This document shows positions 13,253 to 21,193 of a stretch of 64,000 nucleotides of DNA, piece after piece. Numbering within the stretch: position 1 is the first letter of the stretch; each line of letters opens with the position of its first letter. Origin of the DNA: Anaeromyxobacter dehalogenans 2CP-1 (GTDB taxonomy: Bacteria; Myxococcota; Myxococcia; Myxococcales; Anaeromyxobacteraceae); the NCBI RefSeq assembly GCF_000022145.1, contig NC_011891.1, forward strand, positions 1,562,001-1,626,000, given 5' to 3'. The notes beneath the pieces were generated by a model. It was not told the origin of the DNA, did no database searches, and worked only from the letters and a program-made list of their open reading frames with translations. The translations under genes were made by a program, and so were the position numbers.

Positions 13253-15094
13253 ATGGAACGCTCCTGGTACTGGCGCGTCGCGCTCGTCGTGGCGGTCGCG
13301 ATCCTGTCGATCTACCAGCTCGTCCCGAGCTGGTTCTACTTCAAGCTCCCGCCCGACCAGCGGAACACCGAGGCGTACGACACCTCGGTGCCGGGCTGGG
13401 CGCCGGACGCGAAGCACCACCTCAACCTCGGCCTGGACCTCCAGGGCGGCATCCTGCTCTCCATGGGCGTGGACGTCGACCGGGCGGTGAAGACCAAGGT
13501 CGCCCGCCGCGCCGACGAGATCGGCGAGTTCCTGAAGGGCAAGAACGTCGCGTTCACCGGCACGCAGGTGGTCGGCGGCGGCGCGCAAGTCGAGGTGGCC
13601 GCCGCGAACCCGGGCGAGGTGAAGGACGCGGTGCTCGGCTCCTCCGGCTACGCGGAGGAGATGTACTCGCCGGGCGGCGCGCCGGAGGGCGCGGTCCGCT
13701 TCGCGTTCAAGGACTCGGTGCTCCGCGACTTCCGCGAGAAGGCGGTGAAGCAGGCGGAGAAGGTCATCCGCAACCGCGTGGACAAGTGGGGCGTCACCGA
13801 GCCCGACATCAAGACCAAGGCGAACAACCAGATCCAGGTCCAGCTCCCGGGCTTCAAGGATCCGGAGAAGGCCAAGGAGCTGCTGGGCCGCACCGCGCAG
13901 CTCGAGTTCAAGATCGCCGACGACGAGAACCCGGCGCTCGACCCGGTCCGCGGGCAGCTCCCGCAGTGCCAGGGCGACCGCCAGGGCCTGTCCCTGCCGC
14001 TCCCCGAGACCGGCTGCTGGACGGTGGAGCCGGTCGAGCTGCCGAACGGCGGCACGCGCGCGGCCACCATGGTCGCGGCGAACACCCGCACCGAGCTGGA
14101 GAAGGTCATCGCGGAGAAGCTGAACCCGCTGCTCGACCCGCAGAAGAACGCGGTCGGCATCGGCGAGGGCCAGGTCGGCCAGGGCCCCATCAAGACCACC
14201 TACTACCGGACCTACCTGCTCCGCGCGAAGACCGAGCTGACCGGCGACTACATCGCCGACGCGGCGGTGGCCGTGGACCAGTCCGACACGCTCCAGCGCG
14301 GGCGCCCGGTGGTCTCCTTCAAGATGTCGCCCGAGGGGGCGCGCCTGATGGAGAAGCTCACCACCGAGAACATGCGGCGCCGGATGGCGACGGTGCTCGA
14401 CGACAAGGTCGAGACCGCGCCGTACATCCAGGGCCGCATCTCCTCCAACGGCCAGATCACGCTCGGCTCGGGCCGCAACCAGCAGGACATGTTCGACGAG
14501 GCGAACGGCATCGCGCTGGTGCTGAAGGCTGGCGCGCTCCCCGCGCCGGTGACCATCACCGAGGAGCGCACCGTGGGCGCCACCCTCGGGCCGGAGCTGG
14601 TGCGCAAGGGCACGCTCGCGGCGCTGGTCGGCCTCGCGCTGGTGGTGGTGTTCATGGTCGTCTACTACCGCGGCACCGGCCTGGTGGCGGACGTGGCGCT
14701 GGCGCTGAACGGCCTGCTGGTGCTGGCGGTCATGTCGATGATCGGCACCACGCTGACGCTGCCGGGCATCGCCGGGTTCGTGCTCACGCTCGGCATGGCG
14801 GTGGACGCGAACGTGCTCATCAACGAGCGCATCCGCGAGGAGATGCGCGCCGGGCGCAACGTGCGGCAGTCGGTGCAGCTCGGCTACGACCGCGTGTTCT
14901 GGACCATCGTGGACTCGCACGTGACCACGCTGGTCGCCGGCGTGGTGCTGTTCCAGTACGGGTCGGGGCCGATCCGCGGCTTCGCGGTGACGCTGATCAT
15001 CGGCCTGGTCGCCTCGATGTTCACGTCGATCGTGGTGACCCGGGTGATCATGGAGTACTTCACGCGCCACGACACGGCGCGCCTGAGCGTCTGA
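13253..15094 (+). CDS. secD: Protein translocase subunit SecD
   Basis: A 613-residue RND-family membrane protein that, with SecF, uses the proton-motive force to help release exported proteins on the periplasmic side. It has an N-terminal membrane segment (about 8-26), the LGLDLQGGILLSMGVD motif, a large periplasmic domain, and a C-terminal five-helix membrane domain with LTLPGIAGFVLTLGMAVDANVLINERIREE. An insert around residues 220-265 contains a cysteine pair (near 241 and 257) in a loop, which may form a disulfide in the periplasm. The start is contiguous with yajC; the secF ATG overlaps its stop by one base. Confidence 0.96.
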   Translation: MERSWYWRVALVVAVAILSIYQLVPSWFYFKLPPDQRNTEAYDTSVPGWAPDAKHHLNLGLDLQGGILLSMGVDVDRAVKTKVARRADEIGEFLKGKNVAFTGTQVVGGGAQVEVAAANPGEVKDAVLGSSGYAEEMYSPGGAPEGAVRFAFKDSVLRDFREKAVKQAEKVIRNRVDKWGVTEPDIKTKANNQIQVQLPGFKDPEKAKELLGRTAQLEFKIADDENPALDPVRGQLPQCQGDRQGLSLPLPETGCWTVEPVELPNGGTRAATMVAANTRTELEKVIAEKLNPLLDPQKNAVGIGEGQVGQGPIKTTYYRTYLLRAKTELTGDYIADAAVAVDQSDTLQRGRPVVSFKMSPEGARLMEKLTTENMRRRMATVLDDKVETAPYIQGRISSNGQITLGSGRNQQDMFDEANGIALVLKAGALPAPVTITEERTVGATLGPELVRKGTLAALVGLALVVVFMVVYYRGTGLVADVALALNGLLVLAVMSMIGTTLTLPGIAGFVLTLGMAVDANVLINERIREEMRAGRNVRQSVQLGYDRVFWTIVDSHVTTLVAGVVLFQYGSGPIRGFAVTLIIGLVASMFTSIVVTRVIMEYFTRHDTARLSV

Positions 15095-16302
15095 TGCAAT
15101 TCAAGACCTTCGACATCATCCCCCACGACACGAAGTTCGACTTCGTGGGCAAGCGCCACATCGCCGTGGCGCTCTCGCTGGTCGTGAACCTGGCGATCAT
15201 CCTGTGGTCGCTCCCGTTCGTCCACGGCCTGAACATGGGCGTGGACTTCGCGGGCGGCACCGAGATGGAGGTCCAGTTCGGCAAGCCCGTCGATCCGGCC
15301 GACATCCGCAAGACGGTCGAGGACCTGGGCTTCAAGGGCGCCTCGGTCCAGACCTACGGCGCCGAGGCCGAGCACACGTTCCTCATCCGCGTGGAGCGCA
15401 TCTCGCTGCTCACCGAGGCGGACGTGGCCCGGGTGGCCGACGCGGTGAAGACGAAGCTGCCGGTGGCGGGCTTCGCGTTCAACCCGGAGTTCGGCGACAA
15501 GATCGACTTCCAGTTCTCGGGCGCGGTCGACGCCGCCGCGGTCCGGGCGGCGGTCGAGGCGGCCGGCGTGAAGGTGCGCGACGTCCGGGAGGAGCAGGGC
15601 CTCACCGCCGGCACGCGCTCCTACGCGGTCATCACCCAGGGCATCCAGGAGAACGTCCAGGCCGGCCTGAAGGCGCAGCTGGGCGACTCGCAGCCGAACG
15701 TGCGCCGCGTCGAGTACGTCGGCCCGGCCGCCGGCCGCGAGCTCCAGGCGCAGGGCCTGAAGGCCATCCTGTACGCCATCGGCCTCATCGTGGTGTACAT
15801 CGGCCTGCGGTTCGACTTCCGCTTCAGCCCGGGCGTGGTCATCGCGATGCTGCACGACGCGATCATGACCATGGGCTATTTCACCATCAGCGGCCGCGAG
15901 TTCAACCTGACCTCGATCGCGGTGATCCTGACGGTGGTCGGCTACTCGGTGAACGACACGGTGGTCATCTACGACCGCATCCGCGAGAACCAGGCCAAGC
16001 TGCGCGGCCGGAGCCTCTCGGACATCGTGAACCTCTCCATCAACGAGGTGCTGGGCCGCACGTTCCTCACCTCGTTCGCCACCGCGCTCTCGCTCATCGG
16101 CCTGCTCGTCTACGGCGTGGGCACGATCTTCGACTTCTCGATGGCGATGCTGTTCGGCATCGTCTCGGGCACCTACTCCACCTGGTTCATCGCCGCCCCG
16201 ATGACCATCTGGCTGGAGGAGCGCGCCGAGAAGAAGCGGGCGAAGGCGAAGGGCGCGGCCGCCGCGGCCGCGGCCCAGCCGCAGGCGCGCACCGCGAAGT
16301 AG
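15094..16302 (+). CDS. secF: Protein translocase subunit SecF
   Basis: A 402-residue partner of SecD. It shows an N-terminal membrane segment, the GVDFAGGTEMEVQF motif, a periplasmic domain, and the C-terminal membrane domain with GVVIAMLHDAIMTMGYF and VGYSVNDTVVIYDRIREN, the SecF signature. The C-terminal tail is Lys/Ala-rich. Coupled to secD through a TGATG overlap. A 10-bp hairpin 20 bp after the stop probably ends the operon. Confidence 0.96.
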   Translation: MQFKTFDIIPHDTKFDFVGKRHIAVALSLVVNLAIILWSLPFVHGLNMGVDFAGGTEMEVQFGKPVDPADIRKTVEDLGFKGASVQTYGAEAEHTFLIRVERISLLTEADVARVADAVKTKLPVAGFAFNPEFGDKIDFQFSGAVDAAAVRAAVEAAGVKVRDVREEQGLTAGTRSYAVITQGIQENVQAGLKAQLGDSQPNVRRVEYVGPAAGRELQAQGLKAILYAIGLIVVYIGLRFDFRFSPGVVIAMLHDAIMTMGYFTISGREFNLTSIAVILTVVGYSVNDTVVIYDRIRENQAKLRGRSLSDIVNLSINEVLGRTFLTSFATALSLIGLLVYGVGTIFDFSMAMLFGIVSGTYSTWFIAAPMTIWLEERAEKKRAKAKGAAAAAAAQPQARTAK

Positions 16303-16322
16303 CCGCGCGCCGGCAGCGGTTC

Positions 16323-16356
16323 CGGAGGGCCCTTCGCGCCAGCGGGGGGCCCTCCG
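16323..16356. terminator. Hairpin between convergent transcription units
   Basis: Inverted repeat CGGAGGGCCC (16323-16332) and GGGCCCTCCG (16347-16356) with a 14-nt loop. No U-tract follows, so termination strength is uncertain. It lies between secF and the minus-strand receptor remnant and could serve both. Confidence 0.45.
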
Positions 16357-16371
16357 CCGTTCCGGGGCGCC

Positions 16372-17601
16372 TCACTCGCCGCCCATCCGCACCCGCAGCC
16401 CCGCCCGCACCATCCGCGGCGCGCCGATCGTGTCCACGCCGGCGCGGCCGACCAGGTACCGCCGGTCGAGCACGTTCTCGGCCGCCGCGAACGCCTCCAG
16501 CCCACCGCGCAGCGGCACCGAGGCGGCGAGGTCGAGCAGCACGTAGCCGCCCATGGGCAGCGCGTTCCGGTCGTCCTCGTACTGGCGCGAGACCGCGCGC
16601 AGCTCGGCGCCGAGGCGGCCGAGGCCGGCGCGCCAGGCGGCGAGCGAGACCGCGGCGCGGTGGCGCGGGTCCTGCGGCAGCGCGCGCCCGGAGAGCTCGG
16701 GGTGGCCGGGCGCGGACGCGACCCGGGCGTCCACGAACGTCCAGGCGGCCCGGGCCTCGAGCCACGGCAACGGCGCCCAGGCGGCGGCGGCCTCCAGCCC
16801 GCGGATGCGCGCGGCGCCCAGGTTGGCGCGGCGCCGGGTGGCGCCGTCGGGCAGCGGCGCGTCCAGCGTCACGACGGTGATCGGGTCGCGCAGCACGCTC
16901 CAGAAGCCGGTGACGCGCAGGCGGAGCGCGCCGCCCCGGACGGCGAGCTCCGGCCCGGCCTCGGCGCCGAGCAGCGTCTCGGCGCGGAGCGACGGATCGG
17001 GCGCGGTCACGATCGTGCCGACCTGGAACGTCCGGTACAGCTCGTTCAGCGTGGGCGCGCGGAACGCCCGGTAGGCCGACGCGCGCAGCGCGAGCGGGCC
17101 CTGGCCCGGGCGCCAGCGCAGGGCGACGCGGGGCGAGACCTGGGCGTCGCTGCGCGGCGCGTACCGGGTCCGGTCCTCGCCGCCGCCGGCGGCGCGCCGC
17201 AGCCCGGTGGCCTCGCCGTTCCGCCACAGGTCCACCCGCAGCGCGGCCGAGAGCTCGAGGCCTGGCGCCACCGCGGCGCCGCCCTCGGCGAACACGCCGC
17301 CGAGCAGCTGCGAGCCGTCCGCCTCCCGCGCCACCGCCGCGTCCGGCGCCGCGGTCGCCGGGAACAGCGTCTCGCGCGCCGCGCCGGCGACCCGCCGCAG
17401 GTCGCCGCCGGCGGTGAGCCGGAGCGCGCCGCGCGCCGGGGCCGACCAGACCAGCGAGCCGCCCAGGTCGCTGGAGGGCACGCGCTGCCGCGCCGCGAGC
17501 GCCTCGGTGGCGCGCTCCGGGCCGAAGCGGGCGCGATCCGGGTCGAAGCGCCGCGCCCCGGCGTACAGCACCGCCTCGAGCCGCCCCAGCCCGCCCTCGG
17601 C
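16372..17601 (-). pseudogene. TonB-dependent receptor, 3' remnant
   Basis: About 410 codons of the C-terminal beta-barrel of a TonB-dependent outer-membrane receptor. Recognisable elements are repeated aromatic beta-strands, the YRAFRAPTLNELYR segment typical of vitamin B12/siderophore receptors, AENVLDRRYLVGRAGVDTIGAPRMV and a terminal strand LRVRMGG. The plug domain, TonB box, signal peptide and early strands are missing. The frame can be read upstream to AEGGLGRLEAVLYAG at about 17601, where homology stops and a YVTN beta-propeller in another frame begins. The nearest ATG (17571) is internal. The gene has lost its 5' half by deletion and is unlikely to make a working receptor. Confidence 0.75.
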
Positions 17602-17606
17602 CTCTC

Positions 17607-17828
17607 CCCGAGCGGCGAGCCGCTCACGGCGACGTAGAGCCGCCCGCGGGCCGCGTCCAGGCGCAGGCCGCGAGGCCGCGGGCCGACCTCGATCCTCGCC
17701 ACCTCGGCGCCGCTGCCCGCGTCGAGCACGACCACGTGCCGGGAGCCCTCGTCGCTCACGTAGACGCGCGGGCCCGCACCGGAGGTGGATGCGGCGGCGA
17801 GCCAGAGCGCGAGGGCGGGCGCGTGCAC
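17607..17828 (-). pseudogene. YVTN beta-propeller protein, 5' remnant
   Basis: A GTG at 17828 opens a signal peptide (VHAPALALWLAAASTSGA) followed by one to two blades of a YVTN-type beta-propeller: RVYVSDEGSRHVVVLDAGSG, ARIEVGPRPRGLRLDAARGRLYVAVSGSPLG. Homology stops at about 17607, where the TonB receptor remnant takes over in a different frame. Read through, the chimeric frame runs to a stop at 17046 and would give 260 residues, most of them from the wrong frame of the receptor. YVTN proteins and TonB receptors often sit together in myxobacterial metal-uptake clusters (general knowledge), so one deletion could have removed everything between. Confidence 0.65.
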
Positions 17829-18127
17829 CGGCGCAAGGTGCGGTCTCGCGCGTGCGCAGAGGAGCGGCCGCCAGGGGATCGACCCGTCGCCCGGGCTACC
17901 CGGGCGCCGCGACGCGTCGCCGGGGCGACGCCCCCGTAGGCGGGACCCGCTCGACGCGGCCGGCGGCGAGCGCAGGCGCGGCGCGGCGGCGGGTCGCATA
18001 CCCACCGTGAAGTCGCGCCGGCGACCCGGTCGCACCGTGAACTCGGCGCAGCACCGATTGCGCAATCACCAGGAGCGACCCCGCGCGGGGGGTTCGCGTA
18101 TCGGTGGGGAGCGCGCATCCATGCGGC

Positions 18128-18526
18128 ATGGGGGCGAGCGGTTCCACGGCGGGATTGCGCATCGTCGTCATCGATGATGACGCGGACCTGCGCGAGCTGC
18201 TGGTGGACGTCCTCCGGCGGCTCGGTCACGCGGTGATCGGACTGCCCGCGCAGGCCGGCGTGTTCCAGCTCGCCGATCTCCCGCCGGCGGACGTCTGGGT
18301 GGTCGATCACCGCCTCCCGGGGCGCCTCGGGGGCGAGGTGATCCGCGCGGTCCACGACGCGCCCAGCCGGCACCACCCGGTGCTCGTCGGCATGTCCGGC
18401 GACGAGCACGCGGAGGAGGCGTTCCGCCGGGCGGGCGCGGACGTGTTCCTGCAGAAGCCCTTCGACCCGGCGCGCCTGGTCGCCGCGATCGAGGCCGCCC
18501 TGGCCCGCCGGCGCACGGCGTCGTGA
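18128..18526 (+). CDS. Single-domain response regulator
   Basis: A 132-residue CheY-like receiver with no output domain. Acidic pocket Asp-Asp (VVIDDDADL), phosphoacceptor Asp in VWVVDHRLPG, the Ser in VLVGMSG and the conserved Lys in LQKPFD are all present, so it should be phosphorylatable. The ATG at 18128 starts directly before the receiver; an in-frame GTG at 18104 would add eight residues. No histidine kinase is adjacent. About 300 bp upstream (17829-18127) carry no recognisable gene. Confidence 0.88.
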   Translation: MGASGSTAGLRIVVIDDDADLRELLVDVLRRLGHAVIGLPAQAGVFQLADLPPADVWVVDHRLPGRLGGEVIRAVHDAPSRHHPVLVGMSGDEHAEEAFRRAGADVFLQKPFDPARLVAAIEAALARRRTAS

Positions 18527-18591
18527 TCCGCGCGCGACCGCGGCCACCCCCGTTCACGGAGCGTCATGGAGGCAGCCGCGGCGCGGCGCGG

Positions 18592-19296
18592 TCAGCGCTG
18601 GACGCCGCCGCCGGTGCCGGTGCCCGGCGCGCCGGTGCCGGCGCTCCCGGTCCCGGCGCCGCCGGTGGTGCCTGCGTCGTTCGTGTCGGTCCCGGTGCCG
18701 GCGGGCGGCGGATAGGTGCCCGTGTCGGTGGTTCCGCTCGTGCCGGTCCCGCTGGTCCCCGCTCCCGTCGCGTCCGTGCCGGTGCCGGCTGGCGGTGGGT
18801 AGGTGCCGGTGCCGGAGGTCCCGTTCGTCCCGGTCCCCGGGGTCCCGGTTCCCGTCGTGTCCGTGCCGGTGCCGGTGCCGGCGGGCGGCGGAGCCATGTC
18901 GGTGCCGCCGGTTCCGGTGCCCGTGCCTGGCGTTCCGGTGGTGTCGGTCCCGGCGGGTGGCGGGTACGTGCCCGCGCCGTCCGTGCCGCTCCCGGTGCCC
19001 GTGCCGCCGGGCGGCGGATAGGTGCCGGTGCCGTTGGTCCCGGCGCCGGTGGTGTCGGTGCCGGCGGGCGGCGGGTACGCGCCCGTGCCATCGGTGGTCC
19101 CGGTCGCGCCCGTGCCGGTCGTGTCCGTCCCTGCGGCGCCGGCGCCGGTCCCGGCGGTGCCGGGCGCGCCGGCCGTGCCCGCCGTGCCGGCAGCCCCGCT
19201 CCCGGTGCCACCCGCGCCGCCGCTCTGCGCGTAGGCGCCGCCCATCCCCGCGGCGGCCAGCGCGCCGGCCAGGATCCATCTCGTTGCGTGCCTCAT
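18592..19296 (-). CDS. Secreted Gly/Thr/Pro-rich repeat protein
   Basis: A 234-residue protein with a clear signal peptide ([23 protein letters not shown], cleavage near 23). The mature part is almost only Gly, Thr, Ala, Pro, Ser, Asp and Asn. A YPPPAGT-like motif recurs at residues 74, 93, 111, 135 (as APPPAGT), 166 and 195, separated by Gly-Thr dipeptide runs such as [10 protein letters not shown]. No cysteine or long hydrophobic stretch occurs in the mature protein. It may be an extended surface or matrix protein; the Thr-rich runs could be O-glycosylated (inference). A GGGAGG ribosome site lies before the ATG. The family is not recognised, and the repeats invite slipped-strand length variation. 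Confidence 0.7.
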
Positions 19297-19435
19297 CCAG
19301 CCTCCCGTCTCGCGCGCGCGTCCTGCGCGGCGGCCCGAAACCTGCGCACGGCCCCGCTCGCGGCCCGGAGCGCGCGCCGCAGCGCCTGCGGGCGCGCGAG
19401 CCCTCGCGCCCGCGGCCCCGCCCCTGCGCCCGGCC

Positions 19436-19464
19436 GCCGCCCTGTCAGGGCGGCGTGCTACCGA
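19436..19464 (+). promoter_or_regulatory. Palindrome and -10 element upstream of recJ
   Basis: A perfect 9-bp inverted repeat, GCCGCCCTG-T-CAGGGCGGC (19436-19454), ends 4 bp before TACCGA (19459-19464), which lies 7 nt before the recJ GTG. The palindrome covers the -35 area and could be an operator; no regulator is identified. Confidence 0.4.
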
Positions 19465-19471
19465 GCGGACC

Positions 19472-21193
19472 GTGTCGGGCGCGACCGGGAAGCGGTGGGT
19501 GGAGGCGGCGGTGGACGCGGCGCGGGCGGCGCAGCTGGCCGGCGCCCTGGACCTGCACCCGCTGGCCGCGCGCGTGCTGGCCGCGCGCGGCCACGCCGAT
19601 CCGGCCGAGGCCGAGGCGTTCCTGGCCGCGCGCCTCGCCGACCTGCCCGACCCGTTCCGCATGAAGGGCATGGACGCCGCCGTCGAGCGGATCGTGCGCG
19701 CGCTGGAGGGCGGCGAGCGCATCGCCTGCTACGGCGACTACGACGTGGACGGCGTCACCTCGACCGCGCTCCTCTGCGGCTTCCTGCGCGCGGCGGGGGC
19801 CGACGTCGTCACGTACACCCCGCACCGGCTGGTGGAGGGCTACGGCCTCAACGGCGACGCGGTCCGCAGCCTGGCCGCGCAGGGCGTCCGCCTGCTGGTG
19901 ACGCTCGACTGCGGCATCACGAGCGTGGACGAGGTGCGCGTCGCCGCCGGGCTGGGCGTGGACACGGTGGTGGTGGACCACCACACCGTGCCGGTGGAGC
20001 TGCCCGCGGCCGCCGCCATCCTCAACCCCCACCAGCCCGGCTGCGCCTACCCGTCGAAGGACCTGGCCGCGGTGGGCGTGACGTTCGCGCTGGCCATGGC
20101 GCTCCGGCGCCGGCTCCGCGAGCGGGGCCGCTTCGGCCCGGCCCGGCCCGAGCCGAACCTGAAGGAGGTGCTCGACCTCGTCGCGCTCGGCACGGTCGCC
20201 GACGTGGTGCCGCTCGTCGGCGCGAACCGGATCCTGGTGCGCTGGGGGCTCGAGCAGCTCGCGACCAGCCGGCGCCCCGGCGTGCGCGCGCTGAAGCGCG
20301 TGGCCGGCATCGCGGACGGGACGCCCGTGACGGCCGGCCAGGTGGGGTTCCGGCTCGCGCCGCGCATCAACGCCGCGGGCCGGCTCGACGACGCGGGGCG
20401 CGGGGTGCGCCTGCTGCTCTCCGGCGACGCGGCGGCCGCGCAGGCGCTCGCGGACGAGCTGGATCGGGAGAACCAGGCCAGGCAGGAGATCGAGCGGCGC
20501 ATCCTGGAGCAGGCGCTCGCGGACGCGGCGGCGCGGGTGGCCGCCGGCGCGCGCGGGCTGGTGCTGGCCCGCGACGGCTGGCACGCCGGCGTGGTGGGCA
20601 TCGTCGCGTCGCGCGTGGTCGAGCGCTTCCACCGCCCCGCGGTGCTGGTGGCGCTGGAGGACGGCGCCGGGAAGGGCAGCGGGCGATCGATCGAGGGCTT
20701 CCACCTCTACGACGCGCTCGCCGCGTGCTCCGGCCACCTGGCGCGCTTCGGCGGCCACCGGCACGCCGCCGGCGTCACGGTGGAGCGGGCCCAGGTCGAG
20801 CCGTTCCGGGCCGCGTTCGAGGCGCACGCCGCCGCCACCATCGCCGACGAGGACCTGGTGCCGCGCTGCCGGATCGACGGCTGGGTGGGCGACGCCGAGG
20901 TGACCGAGGACGCCGCCGAGGCGCTGGGACGGCTCGGGCCGTTCGGCGCCGGCCACCCCGAGCCGGTGTTCGCGCTGCGCGGCGCCGCGGCGCGCGCGCG
21001 GACGGTCGGGGCGGGCGGCGCGCACCTGAAGCTCGCGCTCGGCCGCGGCCTCGATGCCATCGGCTTCGGCATGGGCGACCGCGCGCCGGCGTGCGGCGGG
21101 CCGGTGGACGCCGCGTTCACCATCGGCTTCGACGAGTGGGACGGCACCCGCCGACTGCAGCTGAAGCTCAAGGACCTGCGACCGGCGCGCTGA
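19472..21193 (+). CDS. recJ: Single-stranded-DNA-specific 5'-3' exonuclease RecJ
   Basis: A 573-residue DHH/DHHA1 exonuclease for recombination and mismatch repair. Metal-binding motifs appear in order: [12 protein letters not shown] (about 90-101), [15 protein letters not shown] (the DHH motif), then [13 protein letters not shown] and PRINAAGRL. The DHHA1 signature follows ([16 protein letters not shown] and [12 protein letters not shown]), with a C-terminal OB-like domain. Length matches RecJ. The GTG start has no Shine-Dalgarno and lies 7 nt after a -10-like hexamer. It faces the minus-strand oxidoreductase gene across a highly structured gap. Confidence 0.94.

Follow-up and report, generated by a model that had tools for sequence, protein, structure and literature searches.

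TonB-dependent receptors, YVTN/PQQ-associated beta-propeller proteins (TIGR02276, TIGR03866) and the gene clusters of XoxF-type PQQ methanol dehydrogenases are the described systems closest to the locus analysed here. For methylotrophs, lanthanide uptake via a siderophore-like substance has been published, according to abstract-level records (e.g. PMC9301485). A literature search at the level of listings and abstract openings returned no published account of a remnant such as the one described below, and the sole paper found to join Anaeromyxobacter, a TonB-dependent receptor and a pseudogene is, by its listing, on Geobacter lovleyi (PMC3403914).

The remnant lies in a window of 64,000 nucleotides (the whole stretch of DNA analysed), which covers bases 1562001-1626000 of the Anaeromyxobacter dehalogenans 2CP-1 genome, a single closed contig of 5,029,329 bp. 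Here, a segment carrying the start of a YVTN gene and the end of a receptor gene is very probably a pseudogene made by a deletion that joined two neighbours.

Two partial genes in different frames

The fused segment lies on the minus strand between secF (15094..16302, plus strand), its conserved right-hand neighbour, and a single-domain response regulator (18104..18526, plus strand; PF00072, E 3.7e-14), which is the conserved left-hand neighbour in the sister species. Its first component is the 5' part of a YVTN beta-propeller gene (17613..17828, minus strand; 72 codons), assigned by homology to receptor-linked YVTN genes and comprising a plausible signal peptide and a first blade. This frame starts from a GTG at 17828, has its codon starts = 2 mod 3 and gives ...RVYVSDEGSRHVVVLDAGSGAEVARIEVGPRPRGLRLDAARGRLYVAVSGSP; the last residues that match YVTN relatives are SGSP, at base 17613. 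Within a junction zone at 17601..17613 (minus strand) the YVTN homology ends and the receptor begins in another frame, with codon starts = 0 mod 3; this frame can be recognised from around GEAEGGLGRLEAVLYAG onwards (about 17607-17560). The second component, the 3' part of a TonB-dependent receptor gene (16372..17607, minus strand), is barrel only and runs to its natural C-terminus and a stop codon at 16372-16374, as indicated by PF00593, homologue matches and a GC3 of 0.99. These homology limits and frames agree with an earlier note on this DNA, which had let the YVTN part run to about 17607 and the barrel continue in a different frame from about 17601 to its end at 16372.

From stop to stop, the receptor frame spans 507 open codons and reaches back to 17895. 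Its first usable start is the GTG at 17571, which gives a longest ORF with a usable start of 399 aa (16372..17571, minus strand) and no signal peptide. Upstream of 17607 the frame consists of out-of-frame YVTN sequence, and both a signal peptide and a TonB box are absent, the latter as previously noted.

With the YVTN stub as query, 17 of 145 genomes of the order, its own included, gave matches, and YVTN genes were matched at E values down to 2.5e-14; among the best eight foreign YVTN matches, seven are close to a receptor (G069, G066, G067, G089, G044, G035 and G039). Identity to these receptor-linked YVTN genes is 56-67% over 49-52 aligned residues. No Pfam family exceeded its cut-off on the stub (NHL 16.7 bits, cut-off 20), and a full-length YVTN relative (L134:13964-14905) scored above the cut-off for TIGR02276 and at E 1.5e-79 for TIGR03866 (267 bits, under the 287 cut-off). 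The earlier note had read a signal peptide and YVTN blades in this part. The propeller assignment holds, with about one blade and not several; the N-terminus, MHAPALALWLAAASTSGAG, is short and without a positive start, and as a signal peptide it is only plausible.

Pfam identified a TonB barrel in the receptor piece (PF00593, E 7.2e-37, positions 125-436 of a 436-position profile) but no plug domain. The intact receptor of a relative in the genus, G007, has its plug (PF07715) at residues 78-191. Aligned to this 720-residue receptor, the piece begins at about residue 312, and its barrel domain is incomplete, about 312 of 720 residues (the plug and the N-terminal half) being missing in comparison with the G007 form. 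By sequence, the nearest solved relatives of the intact receptor are an enantio-pyochelin receptor and BtuB, which match in the plug half only. Of the 145 genomes of the order, 61 matched the receptor piece including its own, i.e. 60 others, with a best identity of 57%, and the open frame at each of the 60 other loci is at least 652 codons long, that of G040 containing an internal TAG. Six loci of named organisms that were also found with the receptor piece (29-38% identity) were too distant to help and were left unused. In a tree of the 61 receptor pieces, the window piece has a long branch and an unusual composition and joins the genus members G007 and G008 (99/94).

Neither missing part was found elsewhere in the own genome. 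A full YVTN query returned just the stub and a distant match of 23%, and the first 310 residues of the G007 receptor returned generic receptors alone (34% and 35% identity, best E 5.7e-10).

Repeats or a terminator were sought at the junction and nothing convincing was found, and an Rfam search of 16000-19500 gave no match. Directly past secF, a GC-rich hairpin at 16319-16352, read by eye and kept in both sister species, may mark the end of transcription from both sides; a terminator scan found none with a T run. The stretch 18616-19191, between the response regulator and recJ, is of low complexity and contains tandem repeat units of 87, 54-57 and 15 bp; its minus strand codes for a protein of biased residue composition. 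Sequence resembling it is present at the corresponding place in both sister species.

The interval between secF and recJ in sister species and the genus

In both sister species (G001 and G002), secF lies next to the response regulator (97% and 96% identity for the secF stretch, 90% and 90% for the regulator), and the whole segment (16368..17928, minus strand) is missing. Between the matched ends, the 1561 bp of the window are represented by 98 bp in G001 and 61 bp in G002. In the G002 residual, 52 bases align to window positions 16642-16592 (minus strand), inside the receptor, with a score of 32, compared with a best score of 23 among 1108 control slices of the own genome (400 kb plus the remaining window, on both strands) and at most 22 in 500 shuffles. 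The aligned stretch reads AGLGRLG, followed by a frame slip. This alignment firmly supports G002 as keeping another shard of the same receptor gene and, because the shard sits in the gap between secF and the regulator, a receptor would have been present there in the common ancestor. For G001, a weak alignment to 16448-16392 (minus strand), reading GADTIGA, makes a second shard of the receptor doubtful: the whole residual scored 29, a value reached by 34 of the 1108 control slices, and when anchored at its right end it was equalled by 19 of 400 controls. Removal of a GCGGC run by hand left a score of 24, compared with a control maximum of 21 (0/1108).

The content of the secF-recJ interval (window 15094-21193; L077, L079, L080 and L237 with L133) varies among genus members. 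While recJ follows secF in G003 and G005, two other genes stand between them in G007, and the contig of G004 ends there; no intact YVTN-receptor pair was found downstream of secF in G003, G005 or G007. G007 and G008 have their receptor elsewhere and without a YVTN gene. In G006, an intact YVTN gene lies between secF and recJ in the orientation of the stub and is 51% identical to that of G069 (E 1.7e-83), with no equally close YVTN relative in other genus members. The readable sequence of the G006 interval holds 5S and 23S rRNA and no receptor (best E 0.006, not near). The intact YVTN gene at this place speaks for the deletion, its standing there without a visible receptor against it. An intact pair between secF and recJ was seen in no genome compared, which, like the location of the G007 and G008 receptors, also speaks against it. 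Besides the rRNA genes, the G006 interval contains a nickel/cobalt transporter set, NikL-CbiM-(CbiQ)-CbiO-NikR, which the YVTN gene heads; its 189-aa gene, which matched no NCBIfam model, is CbiQ by our own reading.

A piece already fused or truncated elsewhere could instead have arrived by insertion, in the window lineage only, at the place between secF and the response regulator. Both the lack of the segment in two sister species and the differing content of the interval, which marks an insertion-prone place, would suit such an origin, but the 52-bp shard in G002 indicates that the receptor occupied this place before the species separated. The grouping of the receptor piece with receptors of the genus also speaks against insertion, as does the G006 YVTN gene, which shares this interval and its orientation with the stub, and we consider such an origin improbable. 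An assembly or sequencing error at the junction, with both genes present in the real genome, is less probable still. The GC content of about 80% around the fused segment is hard to sequence, but the genome is one closed contig, and an error would have to have removed more than 900 receptor bases together with the rest of the YVTN gene, neither of which was found elsewhere. Moreover, a sister species has the same place eroded further.

Gene order around related receptors and the possible former cargo

The stretches around the receptor in the 60 other genomes were searched with the proteins of the G069 cluster. This revealed a YVTN gene near the receptor in seven genomes and none in the fetched stretch of the remaining 53, an absence that is not firm among the 11 stretches of 13 kb or shorter, 10 of which were without a YVTN match. 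In six of the 60 (G035, G044, G066, G067, G069 and G089), the YVTN gene is upstream of the receptor on the same strand, i.e. the two parent genes are neighbours in the order and strand of the fused segment, and in G035 and G044 it stands directly before the receptor. In one further genome (G039), the two genes are divergent.

A PQQ dehydrogenase is present in the fetched stretch of eight of the 60 receptor loci. In four genomes of family f4 of the order (L134-L137), which we take to be Myxococcaceae, the YVTN gene and the receptor bracket about 9 kb, which contain a PQQ methanol/ethanol-type dehydrogenase (TIGR03075) and MoxJ_2 (TIGR03871), both above cut-off, as well as cytochromes, oxidase subunits and CtaG. 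The cluster dehydrogenase is closest to solved XoxF enzymes (4mae, presumably a XoxF; E 8.8e-202) and has an aspartate where the second aspartate of the DYD motif aligns, a residue that we assume to be the lanthanide-binding one. All four clusters have their own cytochrome oxidase and adjoin a helicase gene read as dinG. No PQQ dehydrogenase of this kind was found in nine genus genomes, and no MoxJ_2 in the family of the window species. In G011, a member of the same family, L042:4399-12143 holds two PQQ-dehydrogenase-like genes in tandem, each followed by a putative TonB receptor gene.

Since a receptor is present, the lost function would be uptake, and the cargo was probably a metal chelate or a cofactor. 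By analogy with the f4 cluster only, this may have been a lanthanide chelate or PQQ; a weaker analogy, from G006, would suggest nickel or cobalt. As a general former role, nickel/cobalt uptake was rejected: relatives of CbiM occur in 20 of 145 genomes besides G006, the own genome included, the CbiM genes of the genus lie at places other than secF, and no close YVTN relative lies next to CbiM in the own genome. A broader proposal, that the YVTN protein and the receptor formed a myxobacterial uptake module which once served a XoxF-type, lanthanide-using methanol dehydrogenase (for a metal chelate or PQQ), with the window and its two sisters as a fossil series of repeated loss, is tentative and on present evidence has perhaps one chance in a few of being right.

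Probable decay by deletion and comparison with known systems

Taken together, the neighbour order in six of 60 relatives, the absence of the missing halves elsewhere in the own genome and the G002 shard support the fusion of two neighbours by deletion that the earlier note had put forward. The comparison with related genomes, which it had recommended, favours this reading and adds the sister shard, and the same junction was seen in none of the relatives. In an ancestor of the window species, the secF-recJ interval would have contained a YVTN beta-propeller gene and then, on the same strand, a TonB-dependent receptor gene, with or without genes between them. What we infer to be one deletion event would have taken the end of the YVTN gene, about the first 310 receptor codons and whatever lay between the two, with an out-of-frame join. 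Its length would be roughly 1.5 kb if the gene order was as in G035/G044, or roughly 10 kb if it was as in G069/Myxococcaceae. A transcript of the segment would yield a YVTN stub of 72 residues and then missense as far as a stop at 17046, and no receptor would be made because the barrel lacks a start that carries a signal sequence. An uptake locus would thus be lost with the stub of its first gene and the tail of its last gene remaining. Separate deletions could have occurred in the window species and in each of its two sisters.

In order to judge the age of the decay, we compared positions that are conserved in 85% or more of 20 relatives. Such well-conserved positions were changed at 11 of 123 in the window piece (8.9%), 14 of 122 in G007 (11.5%), 17 of 126 in G008 (13.5%) and 13.7% in G011. 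Three of 48 fully invariant positions are broken in the window piece, equal to the intact relatives G039 and G128, and the worst score for conserved positions belongs to G040, because a stop cuts its frame. GC by codon position in the receptor piece is 0.825/0.617/0.990. Because both this codon signature and the conserved residues have been kept, the deletion looks recent, and the receptor gene would appear to have been out of use since not long ago. Continued production and use of the barrel piece via GTG 17571 or a frameshift, e.g. as a plugless pore, is the least credible alternative, since the 507 open codons and the kept residues that might suggest it have to be set against the spontaneous occurrence of long open frames at such GC, the lack of a signal peptide, of a plug and of part of the barrel, the loss of nearly all of the segment in the sisters and the absence of a similar short form from all 60 other loci.

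The deletion pseudogene is a case of ordinary gene decay, unusually well documented. One gap provides a worked example of the decay of an uptake locus, with a 1.56-kb fused remnant, a 52-base shard in one sister and a doubtful one in another. Across the myxobacteria, it also links a YVTN family with one family of receptors, so that a shared uptake role becomes testable where the pair is intact. Annotators should not take the barrel ORF at 16372-17571 for a receptor.

Compared with intact TonB-dependent receptors (G007 L040:8368-10530, G008 L041:1202-3316), the window piece has the barrel and C-terminus in common at 54-57% identity, whereas the plug, the N-terminal half and a start with a signal peptide are lacking. 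The likeness to YVTN/PQQ-associated beta-propeller proteins is confined to the N-terminus and first blade, the stub being down to 72 codons. The XoxF-type PQQ methanol dehydrogenase cluster of L134-L137 has the same kind of YVTN gene first and the same receptor last, whereas the window is without any of its inner genes. With deletion pseudogenes, in which two partial neighbours are fused, the locus shares truncated neighbours joined with their inner parts gone, and here a further shard in a sister; we see no essential difference from this class.
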